Positions 15,312 to 23,457 of a DNA stretch of 61,306 nucleotides are shown in pieces. Source of the DNA: Candidatus Doudnabacteria bacterium (lineage in GTDB: Bacteria; Patescibacteriota; Doudnabacteria; UBA920). The stretch's first letter is position 1. Every line of letters starts with the position of its first letter. The translations under genes were made by a program, and so were the position numbers. The notes beneath the pieces are model-generated. The model was not told the origin of the DNA. It worked only from the letters and a program-made list of their open reading frames with translations, and searched no databases. Location: NCBI GenBank assembly GCA_020850635.1, contig JADZEH010000036.1:1-61306 (forward strand), written 5' to 3'.

Positions 15312-15696
15312 GGGGATGCCGGATTTCGACAGTTCCTTACCATCTTTTATTATGCAAGACGAGCCAGCATGAGACCCTCGTAAATCTCTTATGCACAAAT
15401 ACATGCAACCGCATGGAACAAGGTTCAAGCCGCGTTTAAAAACGCCCAGCTCGCACCTGCGTTCGCTTAATAAAGTGAACGCCTAGCCCTTAAGGTCGCT
15501 CTGCCCTAAGATCAGCTAGCTTATACTGAGCTATATCACGCCGGCCTGATGTACGTCGTCGTGATGAATCTTTGTACATCGACCTTTGCAGCAGTCGTCT
15601 GTCACTTTTGCAAAGGTACTAAGACAGACTAATCTTGTGAGCTAGTAAAAGGTGAAAGTGAATTGGACATGGGTTTAACTCCCATCATCTCCACCA
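15312..15696 (+). ncRNA. ssrA: tmRNA (10Sa RNA)
   Basis: This RNA of about 385 nt has an alanine-tRNA-like acceptor: 5' GGGGATG pairs with 3' CATCTCC before an encoded ACCA end. A GGATTTCGACAG motif follows the 5' end, and the T-arm has GGGTTTAACTCCC. The tag frame ends AAFKNAQLAPAFA followed by TAATAA; the stop codons sit in the loop of a GCGTTC/GAACGC hairpin, as is usual. The exact resume codon is not certain. With SmpB (24813-25256) it rescues stalled ribosomes. tmRNA genes are frequent integration sites, and GC-rich accessory genes begin directly after this one. Confidence 0.95.
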
Positions 15697-15699
15697 AAG

Positions 15700-15756
15700 A
15701 AAAATAAAATCCACAATAGTTCGTAAAGTTTATGAATTCCTGTGGGTTTTATTTTC
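15700..15756 (+). terminator. tmRNA terminator with nested hairpin
   Basis: The 15-base arms at 15701-15715 and 15741-15755 pair fully with one G-T wobble (they contain AAATCCACA and TGTGGGTTT). Inside, TTCGTAAA pairs with TTTATGAA. The long AT-rich stem ends ssrA transcripts and also leads into the next gene's ribosome site. Confidence 0.75.
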
Positions 15757-15782
15757 AGATTTTCAGTTTAGGAGAGTGTCCA

Positions 15783-16397
15783 GTGAAGTACATTTCGTTG
15801 CTCGTCGTCGTTGTCCTTCTTTCGTTCGCTTCGGCGTGTGGTTCTGACCAGCCCGTATCCAAGACCACGCCGGTCGCCGCATCAAATGGTTCGGCTACGA
15901 AGCCCGAGGCCGCTCCCGAGGTCGTGGAGGTTCCGATGGATATCGCTAACCTCAAGCCCGAGGTTGACGTCGCCAAGCTTACCGATTGGTCTTCCTGTCG
16001 AGAGGCGGATCTGGAATCGTTCAGGCGCCAGCGCGACAGGGGTCTTGCCGAATTCAGGCGCCAGCGAAGTCAGGAGGTTGAGCTCTATCGGGAGTATGAG
16101 AAAGTGCGACTGGTGGAGGCAGGTAAGTTGAAGGCAGCCGATCTGTCCGCATACTATTCGTGGCTTGAGCTTAAGGACCGTGACGATTACGAGGCTATGA
16201 AGCGCTTGAGACTTACGAGTCCGGCCTACGCGCATTACGAAGATGTTCTTGAACAGCATGAGTACAAGCGTGACAGAGAACAGAGGGAGGCGAAACATCG
16301 CGCCATTACCGACGCGATCGAGAAAGTCTATCGCGAGGAGGGCGAGATCATCGACGCCGCCAAGCAGAAGTTGCTTCAGCGGGAGAAGGAGACCTAG
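15783..16397 (+). CDS. Charged helical lipoprotein (GC-rich cassette gene)
   Basis: This 204-residue protein starts at GTG 15783, preceded by GGAG at about ten bases. It has a lipoprotein signal (KYISLLVVVVLLSFASAC, lipidated Cys19). After a Pro/Ala/Glu linker, residues 75-200 are almost wholly charged helix with two similar short units (ESFRRQRDRGLAEF and AEFRRQRSQEVELY), a probable coiled coil. The codon use (GTC, CTC, GCG, CGC) is much more GC-rich than in the surrounding host genes. It is the first gene of the plus-strand cassette series after ssrA and is followed by the paired hairpin element. No family was recognised. Confidence 0.7.
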   Translation: MKYISLLVVVVLLSFASACGSDQPVSKTTPVAASNGSATKPEAAPEVVEVPMDIANLKPEVDVAKLTDWSSCREADLESFRRQRDRGLAEFRRQRSQEVELYREYEKVRLVEAGKLKAADLSAYYSWLELKDRDDYEAMKRLRLTSPAYAHYEDVLEQHEYKRDREQREAKHRAITDAIEKVYREEGEIIDAAKQKLLQREKET

Positions 16398-16431
16398 TCG
16401 GAAAAGTACACGGGGTGTGGGCCCCAAACTT

Positions 16432-16506
16432 AGCGGATTCCCCACAGAATCACAATCCGCTACTTACCTTTGATAATTACCAAGTAGTTATCAATGGTGG
16501 GTAAGT
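16432..16506 (+). repeat. Intergenic hairpin pair H1-H2, copy 1
   Basis: H1 (16432-16461) pairs AGCGGATT with AATCCGCT. Directly after it H2 (16462-16506) pairs ACTTACC with GGTAAGT and TTGATAATTAC with GTAGTTATCAA around a CAA triloop. The same two-hairpin order, H2 stem length and tri-base loop recur at 17631 and 18141, with different paired bases. The rest of the gap to the next gene (16507-16630) contains only a possible CCTGG/CCAGG pairing close to its SD site. Confidence 0.75.
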
Positions 16507-16630
16507 GTATGAGTCAAAGAATGTTATGTCTCTCAACTTGCTTCGCCCAGATAGTAGCTTTTAATTTCTTGAAAGTTATTACCTGGTTAAAGCAACTGTG
16601 CTTTTGCCAAGGTTTCCCAGGAGGATTCTC

Positions 16631-17578
16631 ATGAAGAAGCTCATGTCCGTGCTTTGCTGCACGGCGTTTCTTTTGACCGCGTTTGCAAGCACGGTCACGG
16701 CAGTCACTCCGCGAGCCTCTCAGCAGGATTGGCTCATGTCGATCGGTTACGACGGTGTCCAGGAGTGGTCAGCATTGGTCGGAAAGTCTGACATCCGGCT
16801 CCGATGGAATCCGCTCGTTCCTGGTGTGCTCGATTGCGAGGGTATTGAGTACACGGTGATAGCACACCGATTCTACCTCGTCATCGACCCGACTGCTCAA
16901 CAGGTCTTCAAGTTGGGTGATCAGTGGACCGCATACCGTCAGGTCTCTCCGTGGGACGGAGGTGGTTACCATCTGACGCTCGACGGGGCACTCTCCGGGC
17001 CACGTTGGATGCCGTACTCTGTGGCTACTGGTCGGGATTACTACGATCAGGCCAGGCGAGCAAGTGCGAACCTGCCCGAGTACCTGCGTTCGTTCTTCGG
17101 ACACCCTGGCGGCATGCCTGGCTCTCCGGATGGCAAGTGGTACGACGTACCCAACGACCACAGCGACATCGCTGAGCTTGGCGTTGACGTCAAAGCGTAT
17201 CCCGAGGGTAGCCTCCTCGACACCACGGTCCTCAGCACGGCGACGTTGGACATCGAGTTGTCCGGCATGACGCGTGACGGCTTTATCTCCGTCCACGTCT
17301 ACGACCGGTCAAGGCAGCCGTTCGAGATGGAGCACCTACGCTTCGTCTACAATTCCAACGGTTCCATTTCCTATACGGATGACCATCCGCGGACGTGGAT
17401 GCGCTGGGGTTTCGGTACCAGCGAGTGGGATCGGGATCGAGAAGGTTATCAATTCGTCGATTCAGGGCGGGATCTTCTTCCCCTCATCGAACCCTATCTC
17501 GATCTGCCAGGTCTCGACGTTCGGCGTCGGAAAGCGCTCAGGGCCTACCTGAAAAACCAGCGTTGGCAACGGGCCTGA
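16631..17578 (+). CDS. Large secreted protein of unknown function (GC-rich cassette gene)
   Basis: This 315-residue protein starts at ATG 16631 with AGGAGG seven bases upstream, and has a cleavable signal peptide (residues 1-24, ending FASTVTA). The mature part is rich in Trp, Tyr, Asp and Gly (SPWDGGGYHLTL, RTWMRWGFGTSEWD) and appears globular; two regions could be beta-sandwich-like. No catalytic motif is recognisable. Base composition and SD usage match the neighbouring cassette genes. Hairpin pairs flank it on both sides. Confidence 0.72.
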   Translation: MKKLMSVLCCTAFLLTAFASTVTAVTPRASQQDWLMSIGYDGVQEWSALVGKSDIRLRWNPLVPGVLDCEGIEYTVIAHRFYLVIDPTAQQVFKLGDQWTAYRQVSPWDGGGYHLTLDGALSGPRWMPYSVATGRDYYDQARRASANLPEYLRSFFGHPGGMPGSPDGKWYDVPNDHSDIAELGVDVKAYPEGSLLDTTVLSTATLDIELSGMTRDGFISVHVYDRSRQPFEMEHLRFVYNSNGSISYTDDHPRTWMRWGFGTSEWDRDREGYQFVDSGRDLLPLIEPYLDLPGLDVRRRKALRAYLKNQRWQRA

Positions 17579-17630
17579 TTCCTATTCTTCATCCAAGGAG
17601 GATGACTCTGCGAGGCAAGTGCCTTGCACC

Positions 17631-17755
17631 TGGCGAATTCAAAATTCGCCACCCATCTTTGTTAATTACGAAGTAGTTAATAAAGATGGGTAAGTAAAAA
17701 CAAAACGACATTGTTATGTATCAAAAAAAGTTTGATGTATAGCTGTGTCGTTTTG
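17631..17755 (+). repeat. Intergenic hairpin element H1-H2-H3, copy 2
   Basis: H1 (17631-17651) pairs GGCGAATT with AATTCGCC. H2 (17651-17691) is a 19-base-pair stem with a GAA triloop, only wobbles interrupting it. H3 (17701-17755) has outer arms CAAAACGACA and TGTCGTTTTG and an inner stem ATGTATCAAA/TTTGATGTAT. H3 recurs almost unchanged at 18217-18270. The element ends about 14 bases before the SD site of the next gene. Confidence 0.8.
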
Positions 17756-17777
17756 AATTCCACAAGTTGGAGGTAGT

Positions 17778-18107
17778 ATGCGGGCAGTTCATGATTTTGG
17801 CGAAGTTGGCTCGTGGGAAGCTGCCATGTCTAAGGTGAGTGATCTCTATAATGCTGGAGAGATCAATGGGGTCGCGACTGTTTCGCTTCAGGAGTACCGT
17901 TCGGATCAGTGGTTCGCATCGATACTTCAGGAAGGGGGTGACATACCACCTCGAGTCATGATTGAAGGATTGGCAGAGGTCTGCCCATCTGTTTACCCAG
18001 GAAATAGCAACTTCAAGCTCCTGCGTGTCGACACCGATCTGTCTGGTATGAGTGATCAGTTCCGATGCCTGGTCGTGGTGTACCTGAAGTCTGGTGAGCA
18101 GTTTTAG
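17778..18107 (+). CDS. Small cytoplasmic protein of unknown function (GC-rich cassette gene)
   Basis: This 109-residue protein has GGAGG eight bases before its ATG at 17778. It has no signal peptide or membrane segment, and mixed helix and strand are expected (WEAAMSKVSDLYNAGEING, then FRCLVVVYLKSGEQF at the end). No family was recognised. It lies between copies 2 and 3 of the hairpin element, so it is the clearest example of one gene per hairpin-bounded unit. Confidence 0.65.
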   Translation: MRAVHDFGEVGSWEAAMSKVSDLYNAGEINGVATVSLQEYRSDQWFASILQEGGDIPPRVMIEGLAEVCPSVYPGNSNFKLLRVDTDLSGMSDQFRCLVVVYLKSGEQF

Positions 18108-18140
18108 ATACACAAAAGGTGTGCGAGCCTTTCATTTCCA

Positions 18141-18270
18141 AGCGGAAACTTCGCACAGTTTCCGCTACTCATCTTTGTTAGTTAGTTACTAGCTGCCAAA
18201 GATGGGTAAGCAAAAACAAAACGACATTGTTGTGTATCAAAAAAGTTTGATGTATGGCTGTGTCGTTTTG
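18141..18270 (+). repeat. Intergenic hairpin element H1-H2-H3, copy 3
   Basis: H1 (18141-18166) pairs AGCGGAAACT with AGTTTCCGCT. H2 (18167-18207) pairs ACTCATCTTTG with CAAAGATGGGT and continues as TAGTTAG/CTAGCTG around a TTA triloop, about 19 pairs. H3 (18217-18270) repeats copy 2 with a few changes. Compensatory changes between copies support a selected fold. Confidence 0.8.
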
Positions 18271-18310
18271 AAGTTCTGGGAGCTGACCCAACAACAGCAG
18301 GAGGAGACCG

Positions 18311-18601
18311 ATGAATGATTTTTTGACTCAGGTTGTTGAGTTGCGTCACGCTGATCCGGATAGGATCATAGGCCAGCTCATGGCCATGTTCACCCAGATC
18401 GCTAAGATGGATCCCGTGGGTGTGCTGGTCGCATATCAAACCATAAAAGCTACCGCAGAGGTGGCGGATATGGTGAACAATGTGGTGATCAGGTCACTGC
18501 TGGTCGCAACCGAAGCCCAGATGACATATCTGGCCGCCAGTTCTGGGAACAAGGCTCATCTCGAGCGGTTCAAAGTTGCCACTGGGGGAGTAGTACACTG
18601 A
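18311..18601 (+). CDS. Small helical protein of unknown function (GC-rich cassette gene)
   Basis: This 96-residue protein has AGGAGGAG before its ATG at 18311. It is predicted to be mostly helical (DPDRIIGQLMAMFTQIAKMD, then YQTIKATAEVADMVNNVVIRSLLVATEAQM) with no signal peptide or membrane anchor. No family was recognised. A long structured terminator follows at 18630. Confidence 0.65.
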   Translation: MNDFLTQVVELRHADPDRIIGQLMAMFTQIAKMDPVGVLVAYQTIKATAEVADMVNNVVIRSLLVATEAQMTYLAASSGNKAHLERFKVATGGVVH

Positions 18602-18629
18602 GGTGATCAAATCTTAAAGATTCCTGCAC

Positions 18630-18676
18630 GACCCGGCAGGACGCCACGCCACGCGTGGAGTTCTAGGGTCTTTTTC
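18630..18676 (+). terminator. Structured terminator, family copy 1
   Basis: Outer GACCC/GGGTC encloses AGGA/TTCT and an inner CCACGC/GCGTGG hairpin, followed by TTTTTCTTT. The order, spacing and many bases recur at 22588-22633. Confidence 0.7.
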
Positions 18677-18703
18677 TTTATCCGATTTTTCTTTTTATAT
18701 ACC

Positions 18704-18735
18704 AAAAATCCCCGGACAAGAATCTGGGGATTTTT
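18704..18735 (-). terminator. Terminator of the acidic secreted protein gene
   Basis: AAAAATCCCC and GGGGATTTTT form a strong symmetrical stem, active in either direction. It lies between the cassette series and the minus-strand gene ending at 18749. Confidence 0.85.
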
Positions 18736-18748
18736 CATCAGTAGTTTA

Positions 18749-20047
18749 TTATTGGGTAACTGGTGATCCTTCGCTGTAACCGAAGCTTGTACAGTCGACA
18801 ACTAGGATATGTTCAAAGTCGTGACCATGCTTGCGGAATGTTTCAGCATTGACGAAAGGAAATCTAATATTGTCAACAACTTCAAAGACCGCAGTGGAGT
18901 TAGTACATTTAATTAATGTACCGTCTGGGTGATGAGAGCTGTCATCAATCAAGTCTGAGTCGGTGCTTATAGTACTTAAGTCACTATCACTGATTTGATC
19001 AACTTGCTCGAATTTGAAACCTAACCGAGCAAAGATTTCTGCGCTAGTAAACCCTTTGCGTTTTCCACTCTTAGATACAAACCATACGGTAGCGTCCGAA
19101 CCTTTGATTAAGGTTCCTTCTGCAGGAACAACAGGGTCACTGCTAACTGTTTGGTTGGCAGGGACACCACTTATAGTTCTCACATCTTCGAATTTATGAC
19201 CGCGGGAATTGAAAGCGGCAATACCACGAAATGGCTTTAAGCGGCAAGAGCTGAGTAAGTAAACTGTAGGGGAACCTTCAACTCTATAGAGGGAACCGTT
19301 TTGTAAGCCAGAACCACAATTGTGATGACTTGAGTCGTCGTCTGAGTCATCGTCGCAGTCTTCGCGTTCGTCATCGATGTCTTCGTCGTCATCTTCTCCG
19401 ATATCGCTATCTTCATCGCTTTCTTCGTCGTCAATATCTTCGTCAGAGTCATCGTCGACGTCTTCATCGTCACTATTATCTTCGTCTTGGTCTTCGTCGA
19501 CGTCTTCTTCATCATCGTCGTTGCTATTCGATGAAGTAGTAGTTACAGTGTCGTCTGAACATTCTGATTCGTCATTGTCATCAATCGATGTAAAGCTACC
19601 ATCGATGATTGCGTCACCAGTAACGGCTGTACCACTTAAGTCTTTGATGTTCGTACCAATCACTGTGACTTTGTCTCCAGTAGCCACTGTTGGCAGGGAC
19701 GTCCCAGCTGAGAGAATAATTATCAGCTTTTCTCCATCAACACTCCATTTGGCTTCACCAATAGCTCCGGCTCCATCTAGAAACGAGTGGCTATTGCTGA
19801 GCGAAAACTCAGTCATAATGTTACTTGCAGTAATCGCAAACTTATTGGTTGTTTCAGAAAATTCTAGAACAACACTATCTCCAGCTTCTTTGCTAGAAGT
19901 TCCACCAGAATTTTTGGCTTCTGCTTCGTGCAAAACAGGTACTGCAGCGGTATCATTTTCAGCGCTAACCAGAGTTGGGTTGGCTAAAGATGAAACAGCT
20001 AAAACGAATGAGACAAAGCTCATTGTAATGATTTTTCGGATATTCAT
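18749..20047 (-). CDS. Secreted acidic protein with triple C-terminal repeats
   Basis: This 432-residue protein has a signal peptide at residues 1-29 (FVSFVLAVSSLANPTLVSAE). A beta-sandwich-like region (about 55-150) is followed by a linker at about 155-245 made almost only of Asp, Glu and Ser, which probably binds Ca2+ or other cations. Three tandem repeats of about 45 residues come next, with starts NGSLYRVEGSPTVYLL, EGTLIKGSDATVWFV and DGTLIKCTNSTAVFEV; each continues with a basic FRG/KGF/FPF core and ends in HKFEDV-, FKFEQV- or HDFEHI-like strands. Similar repeats occur in surface proteins of CPR bacteria. An envelope or S-layer-associated role is inferred. AT-rich host codon use. It interrupts the plus-strand cassette series. 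Confidence 0.75.
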   Translation of the reverse strand: MNIRKIITMSFVSFVLAVSSLANPTLVSAENDTAAVPVLHEAEAKNSGGTSSKEAGDSVVLEFSETTNKFAITASNIMTEFSLSNSHSFLDGAGAIGEAKWSVDGEKLIIILSAGTSLPTVATGDKVTVIGTNIKDLSGTAVTGDAIIDGSFTSIDDNDESECSDDTVTTTSSNSNDDDEEDVDEDQDEDNSDDEDVDDDSDEDIDDEESDEDSDIGEDDDEDIDDEREDCDDDSDDDSSHHNCGSGLQNGSLYRVEGSPTVYLLSSCRLKPFRGIAAFNSRGHKFEDVRTISGVPANQTVSSDPVVPAEGTLIKGSDATVWFVSKSGKRKGFTSAEIFARLGFKFEQVDQISDSDLSTISTDSDLIDDSSHHPDGTLIKCTNSTAVFEVVDNIRFPFVNAETFRKHGHDFEHILVVDCTSFGYSEGSPVTQ

Positions 20048-20096
20048 TTTGTTATATTAATGATAAGTTGAATCTACTTAATTCTATCACCATAAA

Positions 20097-20125
20097 ATCA
20101 TAAAACACAGAAAAATTGAGTGTAA
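20097..20125 (-). promoter_or_regulatory. Promoter of the acidic secreted protein gene
   Basis: On the minus strand, TTACAC (20125-20120), 17 bases and TATGAT (20102-20097) lie about 50 bases before the ATG at 20047. The rest of 20048-20190 holds an ACTATGA/TCATAGT hairpin near 20142-20160 and no gene. Confidence 0.55.
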
Positions 20126-20190
20126 TAAGTGTATAAGACTATGATTTCGTCATAGTTAACAGACTTTTTATTTGTGGACAAATATGATAA

Positions 20191-20271
20191 AAGTGTGATA
20201 TTTTGTTAAGTCGTATTTCCACGACCAACAAAAAGGAGTGCATTGTTATGGGTGACTGGGGGAGTGATTGC
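20191..20271 (+). repeat. 81-bp direct repeat, copy A
   Basis: This segment is identical to 22655-22735 except for one base. It covers a leader hairpin (TTTTGTT/AACAAAA around GTCGT/ACGAC), an AAGGAG ribosome site, an ATG and eight codons (MGDWGSDC). Outside the 81 bases the two sites are unrelated. Confidence 0.95.
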
Positions 20272-20283
20272 AAAACCGCTTGA
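20248..20283 (+). pseudogene. Truncated 11-codon copy of the gene at 22712
   Basis: It begins with the same eight codons as the 120-residue gene at 22712 (MGDWGSDC), then reads KTA and stops at TGA inside a terminator stem. The SD site is intact. It may be a remnant of a lost cassette or a short leader ORF coupled to the terminator. Confidence 0.5.
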
Positions 20284-20294
20284 GGCGGTTTTTT
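20272..20294 (+). terminator. Terminator fused to the truncated ORF
   Basis: AAAACCGC and GCGGTTTT form an eight-base-pair stem with a TTGAG-type loop and a T-run. The stop codon of the 11-codon ORF lies in the loop. Confidence 0.8.
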
Positions 20295-20300
20295 GTTTGA

Positions 20301-20329
20301 TTGACTATCTCCTATTTCTACGCTACACT
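20301..20329 (+). promoter_or_regulatory. Promoter of the radical SAM gene
   Basis: TTGACT (20301-20306), a 17-base spacer and TACACT (20324-20329). A short AACCCG-ACCA-CGGGTT hairpin sits between the predicted start and the AGGAGG ribosome site. Confidence 0.7.
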
Positions 20330-20364
20330 GCGGTCAACCCGACCACGGGTTTAAGGAGGGGTCT

Positions 20365-21459
20365 ATGGATCCTCGTAACGATAACGCTAATTTCTGGGTT
20401 TCACTACACGTGAGACCTATGGGAGATTCTTGTAATCTGGCTTGTCGATACTGTGAGTTTGGTAAGGTCAGCCTTGAGCAACGGATGAGTGATGAAGTGC
20501 TTCGCTCGGTTGTGCGCAAGTTACTCGAGCATAATGGAGGCTCGGGGGTATTCTGCTGGCATGGTGGGGAACCGACGCTTGCCGGGGTGGACTTTTTTGA
20601 ACGCGCGGTTCAATATCAGCGCGAGTTCGCTCCAGACTTCAGTAAGGTCATCAATCAGATACAGACCAATGGAGTCGGGTTGAGCGAAGAGCTTGTCACG
20701 CTGTTCGCTCGGGAACGATTCGGTGTCGGCCTTAGCTTAGACGGGCCGGAGACGTTGCACAACCTGACCCGGGTTAATAAGGGCAATGCAGGTAGCTACC
20801 AACAGGTCGTTGCTGGCTTACAGTTACTTCGCTCACACGGTATAGACCCGGCAGTTATTGCCACGGTTTCTCGGGATGCGCTGCCATATGCAGAAGCGAC
20901 GTTCCAGCATTTGGTGAATCTTGGCTTTAAGAATATCCACTACAGTGTGGTCTTCGATTCAAAGCCAGATGGAACGTTGGCCGTAACCAATGACGAATGG
21001 TATGGCTACCTGCGGAACGTATTCCATGCATGGTACGAGATGGCTGACGAGACCATACAGGTTCGGGAACTAAACGAGGTTATCAGCTGGATAGTTGGTG
21101 AACCAGACCCTTGTTGTACGTCTCTGGGTACCTGTGCACATTGGATGACGGTCAACCCCGACGGTAATGTGTCTCCCTGTGAAGTTATGGGGAAGACTTT
21201 GCGCTACGGGAACATCCTTACTGATACGTTTGCGTCAATCATTGCTTCGGTAGGACACCGTGAGCTCGTGAAATTGGCGGCATTCAGGCCGTCGATATGC
21301 CAGTCTTGTGAATTTTTGTCAGTCTGCAATAATGGGTGTACGAACATGCGGACCAGTACGAGCGGGTCACAAAATCCGCGAGGGCTCTATGCTTACTGTC
21401 ACGAACGGCAGCAACTGTTCCGTGAGATCGTAAACGTTTTCGAAGAGGGTACATCTTAA
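20365..21459 (+). CDS. Radical SAM/SPASM peptide maturase
   Basis: This 364-residue enzyme has the radical SAM CxxxCxxC motif as CNLACRYC (Cys23, 27, 30) and a glycine-rich GGEPTL segment. Its C-terminal SPASM domain follows the family rule closely: C257-x9-G-x4-C272, then C312-x2-C315-x5-C321-x3-C325, and C345. Such enzymes use S-adenosylmethionine and auxiliary Fe-S clusters to cross-link or otherwise modify ribosomal peptides, or to mature sulfatases. No sulfatase is present, and a 35-residue peptide gene starts 16 bases after its stop, so RiPP maturation is the favoured role. ATG 20365 is preceded by AAGGAGG. GC-rich like the other cassette genes. Confidence 0.9.
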   Translation: MDPRNDNANFWVSLHVRPMGDSCNLACRYCEFGKVSLEQRMSDEVLRSVVRKLLEHNGGSGVFCWHGGEPTLAGVDFFERAVQYQREFAPDFSKVINQIQTNGVGLSEELVTLFARERFGVGLSLDGPETLHNLTRVNKGNAGSYQQVVAGLQLLRSHGIDPAVIATVSRDALPYAEATFQHLVNLGFKNIHYSVVFDSKPDGTLAVTNDEWYGYLRNVFHAWYEMADETIQVRELNEVISWIVGEPDPCCTSLGTCAHWMTVNPDGNVSPCEVMGKTLRYGNILTDTFASIIASVGHRELVKLAAFRPSICQSCEFLSVCNNGCTNMRTSTSGSQNPRGLYAYCHERQQLFREIVNVFEEGTS

Positions 21460-21475
21460 CAAAGGAGGGCTAACC

Positions 21476-21583
21476 ATGAAGAGTAAGCGTGTTTTCATTG
21501 AAGCCGTGCTCAAGCGGGCTCGCGCCAAGGCGAAGCAAGCTGCTTCGCTCGAGTGGAAGAATACCGGGTGGCTGCGTAACTAG
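21476..21583 (+). CDS. Candidate RiPP precursor peptide
   Basis: This 35-residue peptide has AAAGGAGG six bases before its ATG. The N-terminal two thirds is a basic amphipathic helix typical of a leader (Lys, Arg, Ala rich). The C-terminal part reads EWKNTGWLRN. It contains K28-N-T-G-W32, which fits the KxxxW spacing of streptide-type Lys-Trp cross-links, and also WKN and WLR, which fit three-residue cyclophane (triceptide) motifs. It has no Cys, so sactipeptide thioether chemistry is ruled out. The position directly after the SPASM maturase is the main evidence for its role. Confidence 0.72.
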   Translation: MKSKRVFIEAVLKRARAKAKQAASLEWKNTGWLRN

Positions 21584-21602
21584 GAGCCACATCGTTCTAA
21601 CG

Positions 21603-21676
21603 TAGGCACTTATGTGCCTAGCATCTTCGGTCTGAAACTTCTATACTACCCTCGTAGGAGTTTCGGACCCTTTTTT
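21603..21676 (+). terminator. Double hairpin and terminator ending at the protease ATG
   Basis: The first hairpin is TAGGCAC-TTAT-GTGCCTA (21603-21620). The second pairs GGTCTGAAACT (21629-21639) with AGTTTCGGACC (21659-21669) and is followed by six T residues at 21671-21676. The protease ATG begins at 21677, immediately after the T-run. It can end the precursor transcript and would govern read-through into the protease gene. Confidence 0.8.
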
Positions 21677-22564
21677 ATGAAAATATCAATTGATCCTATT
21701 CTCTGTAAATATCAATTTTTACACCATCTTAGCGGGTGGCATTATTCATCTCGGACTTCATTTGGTCAGTATTGGCGATCAGTGCCGGGAAAGTTATCGT
21801 ACGATGAAGTACAGGCAGTAAAGAATTGGACTGCTTTGAGTAAACGAGTGTTTGCAAAAGAAAACTTGTTTTTAGCAGAAAAGTATTTAAGTGGAACTTT
21901 GTCTGTTGACGAGGAGACTGCGGTGCAGGCTATTTTTGAAGTGTTAGGGGGTCGCTTTGGATATCATTACAAAAAGCAATTCTCAAACATAAAAAAAGTT
22001 TCTTTATATTTGTCTCGTTCATCATTAGATAGATATGTACAGGATACATTTCGATTTTATAAAGTTAAGCCAAAGTTGCCGCCAGTCTACATAACGCTTT
22101 CTTATAATGCGCAGAAAGAAGCTGGGGGAATGTATTTGGGTAAAGGTGTGGTTATTGAATTCGGTGATTGGAAATTAGGGAAAGATAATGAGCCATTGGT
22201 AAATGTCGCGATCCATGAGTTAACTCATGGAGTTTCGTTGATACCATTGCTCCCGCGTACATTACGCCTTAAATTACCAGAAGAGTTCAACTCTTCTGCC
22301 AAGGACTTTATGGAAGAGGTTGTTCACAATGCCCTTTGGAGCCAAATCGGAGTTTTTACTCAGAAAGTTTTTCGTTTTTCGGATACAGAACTAGATAGAC
22401 GCTTCAAGCGATTAATGAGAATAGCCCCCGAGCCTTATAAAAGTTTGTTTATGAGCTCATATTCCGTTCGTTCTTTGTTGCAAGGGCATTTAGCTGCGGG
22501 AAAAAGCCTTAACAATTATTTGTTACTTAAACTCATTCAAGAAGTAAGAAGTTCTCTTAAATAG
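21677..22564 (+). CDS. HExxH zinc metalloprotease-like protein
   Basis: This 295-residue protein starts at ATG 21677; a GTG at 21614 would place the start inside the terminator structure. The motif IHELTH gives His180, Glu181 and His184, and Glu213/Glu214 in FMEEVVHNALW is a candidate third zinc ligand about 30 residues on. There is no signal peptide; the protein is basic and AT-rich in codon use, unlike the SPASM gene. Next to a RiPP-like pair it could remove the leader peptide, but host-like composition means it may be an unrelated neighbour. Confidence 0.65.
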   Translation: MKISIDPILCKYQFLHHLSGWHYSSRTSFGQYWRSVPGKLSYDEVQAVKNWTALSKRVFAKENLFLAEKYLSGTLSVDEETAVQAIFEVLGGRFGYHYKKQFSNIKKVSLYLSRSSLDRYVQDTFRFYKVKPKLPPVYITLSYNAQKEAGGMYLGKGVVIEFGDWKLGKDNEPLVNVAIHELTHGVSLIPLLPRTLRLKLPEEFNSSAKDFMEEVVHNALWSQIGVFTQKVFRFSDTELDRRFKRLMRIAPEPYKSLFMSSYSVRSLLQGHLAAGKSLNNYLLLKLIQEVRSSLK

Positions 22565-22587
22565 GAAAAGAAATAATATAATGCATC

Positions 22588-22633
22588 AACCTGGTAGGAC
22601 GTCACGTACGCGTGAAGTTCCATGGTCTTTGTT
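22588..22633 (+). terminator. Structured terminator, family copy 2
   Basis: ACC/GGT, AGGA/TTCC and an inner TCACG/CGTGA hairpin, then TCTTTG. It matches 18630-18676 in order and sequence (shared AGGACG, CACG, CGCGTG, AGTTC, GGTCTTT) with paired changes. A TATAAT at 22577-22582 lies directly in front, so it could instead begin a short RNA. Confidence 0.6.
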
Positions 22634-22654
22634 GTTGTCTAGACACCGCCATCG

Positions 22655-22735
22655 AAGTGTGATATTTTGTTAAGTCGTATTCCCACGACCAACAAAAAGG
22701 AGTGCATTGTTATGGGTGACTGGGGGAGTGATTGC
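22655..22735 (+). repeat. 81-bp direct repeat, copy B
   Basis: Copy B of the 81-base repeat (copy A at 20191-20271, one mismatch). Here it supplies the leader, ribosome site and first eight codons of a complete 120-residue gene. Confidence 0.95.
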
Positions 22736-23074
22736 GAGAGCGCTTTGGATATGGCCGCTTTCAGGGTCAGACAGCTGATTTTGGTTGATCCAAATCATCC
22801 TCTGCTTAGGTTCAAGTGGGTTGTTCTTTTCAAAGGTGACCCTGATCTTGAAATGCCAGAGGGAATGGTTGAGGCGACAGCCGAGGAGTACTACGATAAT
22901 TTCTGGCTTGGTGAACAGCCGTGGAGAGAGGTCGAGGTTGGCGCCATGGTCAGGACCGTTGCTGCGTCGAATTATGCCACCGCCTTGGACGAGGCTTTGG
23001 GAGTCGAAGCAGTGTGGCCCAGTTCTCTGTTGAGTAGTCGTCCGAGGGTGTGGAATGGGGAGGGTTTTGAATAG
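22712..23074 (+). CDS. Acidic protein of unknown function (GC-rich cassette gene)
   Basis: This 120-residue protein starts at ATG 22712, set by AAGGAG eight bases upstream and by the shared repeat; a longer frame to 22667 has no ribosome site. The sequence is acidic and Trp-rich (GDWGSDCESALDMAAFRVRQL, then NFWLGEQPWREVEVGA). It has no signal or membrane segment. The pattern of an amphipathic helix followed by strands (FKWVVLFKGDPDL) suggests a small globular alpha/beta domain. No family was recognised. Nine-base inverted repeats (CACCGCCAT 22644, ATGGCGGTG 23080) bracket it. Confidence 0.68.
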   Translation: MGDWGSDCESALDMAAFRVRQLILVDPNHPLLRFKWVVLFKGDPDLEMPEGMVEATAEEYYDNFWLGEQPWREVEVGAMVRTVAASNYATALDEALGVEAVWPSSLLSSRPRVWNGEGFE

Positions 23075-23256
23075 CGCCTATGGCGGTGATTGTGCTTTGT
23101 GCCGGTCGCCGCTCTTTTTATGCTTATTTGAAGCTATATCTTAGCCCCTATCTTTATTTCTCGATGTGTGTCATACTCACCCCGCAACAATTGTCTTTAG
23201 AAAAATCGTCGAGCTTCAAAACATTTCAATTTGCACCTAATTTTTAACACAAATCT

Positions 23257-23457
23257 ATGAACGGTATTATCAAGAAGAAAGTCGCCGAAAAGGGTTTTGG
23301 TTTCATTACCCCAGACGGTCAAGACAAAGATCTATTTTTCCATAGCAATTCTCTCGTCGGAGTAACTTTTGACGAACTCAACGAAGGTGACGCAGTCACT
23401 TTTGAGTCCGAGGATTCTCCAAAGGGACCAAACGCGGTCAACGTTCAGCGCGCGTAG
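23257..23457 (+). CDS. Cold-shock domain protein
   Basis: This 66-residue single cold-shock domain has RNP1 KGFGFIT and RNP2 DLFFHS, the nucleic-acid-binding motifs of the CspA family. These proteins bind single-stranded RNA or DNA and loosen RNA structure. It stands alone, with a terminator directly after it and no SD-like site before the ATG. The gap 23075-23256 before it contains a GGCGGT/GGTCGCC terminator-like hairpin with TTTTT near 23115 and otherwise nothing recognisable. Confidence 0.93.

Follow-up and report, generated by a model that had tools for sequence, protein, structure and literature searches.

Organization of the locus

The window, by which we mean the whole 61,306-nucleotide stretch of DNA that was analyzed, lies on contig 38 of an 868,613-base genome (completeness 96%) and carries, in this order on its plus strand, a SPASM radical SAM (rSAM) gene, a gene for a 35-aa peptide and a gene for an HExxH protein. 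The features of the locus are as follows.

20191–20281, plus strand: direct-repeat copy 1, upstream of the cluster, comprising a 5′ UTR and the short frame MGDWGSDCKTA, closed by a terminator-like hairpin
20301–20329, plus strand: promoter-like site TTGACT-17-TACACT, 5′ of the rSAM gene (consensus scan, match only)
20365–21459, plus strand: predicted radical SAM/SPASM peptide maturase, 364 aa (PF04055 and PF13186 over cut-off, SPASM Cys set, AlphaFold model)
21476–21583, plus strand: predicted precursor peptide MKSKRVFIEAVLKRARAKAKQAASLEWKNTGWLRN, 35 aa, with Shine-Dalgarno (SD) sequence AAAGGAGG (same-position homologs in genomes G333 and G360)
21554–21580, plus strand: conserved putative core WKNTGWLRN (WKxxGWx[RK]N conservation; Trp+2 preference across the family)
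21629–21676, plus strand: terminator-like hairpin of 16 bp, then CTTTTTT, between the precursor and HExxH genes (fold z)
21677–22564, plus strand: HExxH gluzincin-like protein, 295 aa, candidate leader peptidase (rSAM linkage elsewhere in CPR; HExxH plus Glu214)
22655–22745, plus strand: direct-repeat copy 2, downstream of the cluster, leading into an open reading frame (ORF) at 22706–23074

An earlier sequence-only reading had placed a candidate RiPP cluster at 20301–22564; its gene coordinates and spacing are correct, and the start of its range falls in the promoter region, slightly 5′ of the first gene. The rSAM gene runs from an ATG at 20365 to a stop at 21459, and the peptide begins at an ATG at 21476, 16 nt past that stop and behind a strong SD sequence. 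Folding of 21586–21685 gave a z of −6.4 for the hairpin between the precursor and HExxH genes, and a comparable hairpin lies at the same place in G333, as expected if the precursor is made in excess, a purpose that we infer. A search with Rfam over the cluster returned no RNA family.

The 91-bp direct repeat that flanks the cluster occurs only twice genome-wide, in copies that are 96% identical, and contains a hairpin, an SD sequence and a frame start, MGDWGSDC; in the upstream copy this frame is 11 aa long and the terminator-like hairpin lies at 20272–20292. The repeat is possibly a duplicated leader or an insertion trace. A second repeated-leader pair is found at 17647–17760 and 18163–18275 (82 nt at 84% plus 34 nt at 97% identity); these leaders carry a CCCATCTTT..AAAGATGGG hairpin, each stands 5′ of a small ORF without a Pfam match, and they look like modular cassettes. 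Just upstream of the cluster, on the minus strand at 18749–20047, is a gene for a secreted protein with a long acidic stretch rich in Asp, Glu and Ser and with repeat segments. We considered the gap in GC content (51%–56% in the rSAM and peptide genes, 38% in the HExxH gene) as a sign of separate origins and dropped it, since the same ranking, with the peptide highest and the HExxH gene lowest, is also seen in G333, G360 and G299.

A conserved short peptide with a Trp-containing tail

The peptide ends in EWKNTGWLRN and contains no Cys, in agreement with the earlier description in both coordinates and sequence. Its frame is conserved, a point on which that reading had staked its proposal: homologs occupy the same position in two genomes of other classes, G333 and G360, with the identical three-gene order. 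In G333, MSKQSFVAKAIARAAAHARQPKASSWKDSGWARN lies between the rSAM gene and the HExxH homolog and is 42% identical to the window peptide over 33 aa (BLASTP, E 9e-7); in G360, MALVNLTAKTVEAVENIVEETINLPVALGWKKNGWLKN lies between the rSAM and HExxH genes. The three precursors, counting that of the window genome (G000), share the ending WKxxGWx[RK]N. We searched 380 genomes of the phylum, mostly 0.4–1.7 Mb in size, which agrees with an assignment to CPR/Patescibacteria, for a DNA pattern encoding WKxxGWx(R/K-like)N followed by a stop and found four matches, three of which are the G000, G333 and G360 clusters; the fourth, in G232, is out of frame inside another gene and was set aside as chance. The reversed control pattern matched once in the same 380 genomes. 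These comparisons indicate that the 35-aa peptide gene is real and conserved. A Pfam match of the peptide to Herpes_UL49 was below cut-off, fell on a basic low-complexity stretch and was dismissed.

The search for further maturase-adjacent peptides that the sequence-only reading had proposed turned up about ten more CPR clusters with the same enzyme branch and other short peptides, and most of the other enzyme-bearing genomes have short peptides nearby. The maturase-neighbor peptides end in ..PWDKAWEKGPWDKGHWANRK (G174), ..GWDDYEAWPNSWHDDLDTGGGPWHDDWFDEHS (G165), ..GDPWFRHSK (G265), ..YIDDYGNYGNWMDCNDWH (G284) and ..GEWEQNWDQTGGDEWGETVP (G414), or contain ..DWKNWPDWENETDFPNWENIGG.. (G299), ..CYLDNYCDTPGYNDH.. 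(G231) and ..AYDNYVYPDDGSSYSNDD.. (G091); G096 has two. Across 13 CPR precursors, the residue at +2 is N, D, K, R, Q or E for 25 of the 26 core Trp, against a shuffled expectation of 14.3 of 26 and with 0 of 4,000 shuffles as high, a figure that is supportive rather than a clean test because precursors of the wider set were in part selected by eye for their aromatic tails, and such selection inflates motif statistics. Offsets +1, +3 and +4 show no excess, and these controls lessen the bias. The three-member subgroup is independent of the eye-chosen precursors, and there the +2 residues of the two core Trp are N/D/K and R/R/K in G000/G333/G360. Judged from these motifs, the Trp+2 preference would correspond to the i/i+2 spacing that marks three-residue cyclophanes. 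Both KxxxW and WxN/WxR patterns had been read in the core; WxN/WxR is borne out across the wider family, whereas KxxxW (K28-N-T-G-W32), invariant as K-x-x-G-W in G000, G333 and G360, does not occur in the ten remaining CPR precursors.

The maturase lies outside the sulfatase-maturase clade

The description of the enzyme as a SPASM protein with all the expected Cys spacings holds. Pfam models Radical_SAM (2e-16) and SPASM (8.8e-8) both match over cut-off, and the Cys set (C23-x3-C27-x2-C30, C251, C257, G267-x4-C272, C312-x2-C315-x5-C321-x3-C325, C345) is invariant in the window enzyme and nine CPR relatives. In an AlphaFold model with a pLDDT of 83, the best structural matches are anSMEcpe (TM 0.84, Foldseek 1e-26) and ChlB (TM 0.83), whereas SuiB is a poorer match (TM 0.63–0.67). 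The enzyme starts about 20 residues ahead of CxxxCxxC and its model has no extra N-terminal domain, so it has no N-terminal RRE.

Among NCBIfam models the best is the anaerobic sulfatase maturase (anSME) family TIGR03942 (6e-74), and the nearest solved relative by sequence is anSMEcpe (1.7e-45), which together raise an alternative: the enzyme could mature sulfatases or be a SPASM enzyme that modifies some other protein, and the peptide could be no more than a regulatory small ORF or a spurious one. The TIGR03942 score, however, is 249 bits against a cut-off of 349, 100 bits short, and nine other CPR maturases score 243–288 bits, whereas the one CPR enzyme that adjoins a sulfatase gene, in G086, scores 483. 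In a tree made by a quick method, with some deep forks left open, the window and G333 enzymes pair (SH-aLRT 97), G265 comes next (81) and the window enzyme falls outside the sulfatase-maturase clade (SH-aLRT 95) that contains anSMEcpe and the G086 enzyme. At the position of the Asp that follows a SPASM Cys in anSMEcpe (PCD), which we take to be the anSME catalytic residue, the window, G333 and G265 enzymes have Glu (CE), and nearly all non-CPR relatives have Asp (CD). No PF00884 sulfatase over cut-off was found in the window genome, 96% complete, in which there is one weak partial match of 17 bits. Grouping with the sulfatase-activating enzymes, named earlier as the outcome that would tell against a peptide maturase, is thus not what these results show, and the conserved peptide adjacent to the enzyme in all three genomes also speaks against this alternative, to which we give very little credence.

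The cyclophane maturase models of NCBIfam all scored below cut-off on the window enzyme: GrrM (127 bits of 310), YhhB (125 of 445), AmcB (126 of 425), XyeB (53 of 450) and DynA, the second-best model overall (185 of 450). The substrate chemistry that we propose is for this reason drawn from motifs.

The HExxH protein is linked to the maturase

The third gene encodes, as the sequence-only reading had it, an HExxH protein that follows the peptide, with HELTH at residues 180–184 of 295; its start was set at the ATG at 21677, where homology begins. A single-query search with this protein found four other genomes, in all four of which an rSAM gene adjoins (P about 1e-6 by chance for co-occurrence alone); the G333 homolog is 29% identical. 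A profile search extended the family to 12 genomes, with an rSAM gene adjacent in nine, at a higher significance that is biased because the profile was built from rSAM-linked members. HExxH-family genes without an adjoining rSAM gene occur in G028, G130 and G133 and at a second G096 locus, G096:C77 (L116–L119), and the family may have uses outside rSAM clusters.

Family members share an N-terminal N-x-FFF..NLSxWHFS, the HExxH motif and a later Glu; HExxH and E214 are invariant, and this Glu lies in a helix that follows HExxH, as in gluzincins. NCBIfam and Pfam searches of nine members at E up to 1 gave no relevant match and no curated hydroxylase family. The model of the window protein (pLDDT 88.5) has weak Foldseek matches in the PDB (E 0.06 at best), the sensible ones being gluzincin peptidases of families M4, M61 and M1, and it matches a viral M61-like model with a probability of 0.99. 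The protein falls in a gluzincin-like family that has no name and is associated with these clusters, and it is probably the leader peptidase, which is the simplest role for it.

A different role is conceivable though rather unlikely, namely that of an alphaKG-HExxH beta-hydroxylase tailoring the cyclophane peptide, like ChlH, or of an immunity or inactivating peptidase. Proteins of the alphaKG-HExxH type, whose fold is zincin-like, are found together with rSAM enzymes that form cyclophanes (PMC12636437), and the family members that stand apart from rSAM genes suggest that other uses may exist. Against hydroxylation, no family member matches any NCBIfam hydroxylase model, the helix Glu is conserved as in gluzincins and the Foldseek matches, weak as they are and drawn from a library without a confirmed alphaKG-HExxH structure, are to peptidases.

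Distribution and genomic neighborhood

Fifteen of the 380 genomes searched across the phylum, including that of the window, have an enzyme at E < 1e-20, which in one of them (G086) is a true sulfatase maturase by score. The closest enzyme is that of G333 (41% identity). In G360 the maturase gene is broken by an apparent frameshift in the assembly (L017 1380–1520), either an assembly error or a decaying copy. Among the genomes searched, none of the other 21 of the window's family, the other 48 of its class or the other 54 of the class of G333 has the cluster, which suggests that it moved horizontally. A same-family genome, G151, keeps rplT, infC, NRAMP, csp, tmRNA, smpB and argS in the neighborhood and has none of the window ORFs between tmRNA (15312–15696) and csp (23257); with the flanks kept and the intervening ORFs missing, the stretch of about 7.5 kb (15312–23257) in which the cluster lies is variable, and the region 3′ of tmRNA may be a hotspot for insertions.

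Outside this set, a scan of genome contigs with a two-sequence rSAM alignment found generic anSME-like enzymes at 23%–33% identity and no clear CPR relative, a scan of viral contigs gave nothing, and plasmid records gave anSME-level matches only (≤31% identity among the matches listed). Two other loci, in G091 and at G096:C34 (L007 and L016), pair a related rSAM gene and a Tyr-rich peptide with a transglutaminase-like protein, which stands in place of the HExxH protein and may be an alternative processing enzyme. The third-closest cluster, in G265 (L003 2828–3616), has a different downstream protein with no Pfam match that is Tiki/TraB-like by eye only.

A proposed pathway

Computation covers the presence and order of the genes, the conservation of the precursor core, the i/i+2 motif across related clusters and the linkage of the HExxH family to the maturases. 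On these grounds we consider it likely that the locus is a compact RiPP cluster of triceptide type, with predicted cross-links W27-N29 and W32-R34. In the pathway that we infer, which extends to bond positions, leader boundary and peptidase role, the ribosome would make the 35-aa precursor, whose N-terminal 26 or so residues, basic and helix-prone, would be the leader. The SPASM radical SAM enzyme would cleave SAM and take a beta-hydrogen from Asn29 and then from Arg34, and each carbon radical would couple to the indole of the Trp at −2 (W27 and W32), giving two three-residue cyclophanes of the triceptide type with 2 Da lost per ring. The HExxH gluzincin-like metallopeptidase would then cut off the leader and free a peptide close to WKNTGWLRN, whose role as a weapon or signal toward the host or rival epibionts is a guess.

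The same three genes could also make a peptide with a streptide-type Lys-Trp bond over KxxxW, in which the beta-carbon of K28 would be attached to the W32 indole, with or without an additional three-residue ring. In streptide the bonded residues are Lys2 and Trp6, a spacing equal to that of KxxxW (PMC11002830), and we keep this chemistry as an unlikely possibility because KxxGW is conserved in the three-member subgroup. It is the W-x-polar motif, however, that is general in the enzyme branch, and the window enzyme has no N-terminal RRE, unlike SuiB (PMC8326336), the poorer of the structural matches. A bolder idea, which we hold to be improbable, joins several of these elements: a single enzyme would build an interlocked bicycle into the WKxxGWx[RK]N peptides (for example, through a K28-W32 bond over a three-residue ring, much as darobactin and dynobactin have two bonds), a new metallopeptidase family would release them, and the cluster would spread horizontally among CPR epibionts as a tool against hosts or rivals.

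If the triceptide-type reading is right, several lineages of CPR bacteria, with tiny genomes and a dependence on other microbes, yet retain three genes dedicated to making a modified peptide. The maturase branch seen here is not represented in current family models, and a metallopeptidase family without a name becomes a candidate for the removal of the leader; the short Cys-free substrate and compact RRE-less maturase make the proposal directly testable in E. coli. Should the product have hosts or rivals as its targets, the epibiont lifestyle would gain a concrete molecule.

Comparison with known systems

RiPPs in CPR bacteria had been described as rarely reported, and there are precedents: graspetide clusters were predicted in 2022, some at loci with SPASM enzymes and zincin or Tiki/TraB peptidases (PMC8939145). 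The window locus is likened to the branch 2 loci of that work, CPR RiPP loci at which a SPASM enzyme and such peptidases are often present, but it is a predicted RiPP cluster at which no ATP-grasp gene was seen, with the maturase alone and a Trp core. The anSMEs (TIGR03942) are closest by sequence and fold and have identical SPASM cysteines; the window enzyme differs in its sub-cut-off score, its place outside the clade, the change of the catalytic Asp to Glu, a genome with no sulfatase over cut-off and an adjacent small peptide. StrB and SuiB are likewise SPASM enzymes, and the KxxGW spacing in the window equals the Lys-Trp spacing of streptide, but the window enzyme has no RRE domain, KxxxW is not general in its branch and no Rgg/SHP system was seen beside the cluster. 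ChlA/ChlB, in which a fused rSAM and alphaKG-HExxH protein carries out cyclophane formation and beta-hydroxylation, resemble the window in rSAM fold (TM 0.83) and in having an HExxH partner; in the window this partner is separate, of another sequence family and gluzincin-peptidase-like, and the precursor is unrelated.

The closest likeness is to the triceptide systems (XncB/XyeB, OscB/GrrM, YhhB, AmcB and DynA), in which a SPASM enzyme stands beside a short precursor with a C-terminal aromatic-x-(N/D/R). The window differs in that no family model was passed, WKxxGWx[RK]N lies outside those families and the HExxH partner is unnamed; with no curated maturase model passed and with bonds that are predicted, we speak of a resemblance to a triceptide cluster and do not claim formal membership. 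At i/i+2, the residue joined to Trp is Arg or Asn in the case of XncB and Asn or Asp in that of OscB (PMC11002830). These acceptors cover the N and R of the window peptide and the D and R of G333, and G360 has K at both +2 positions.
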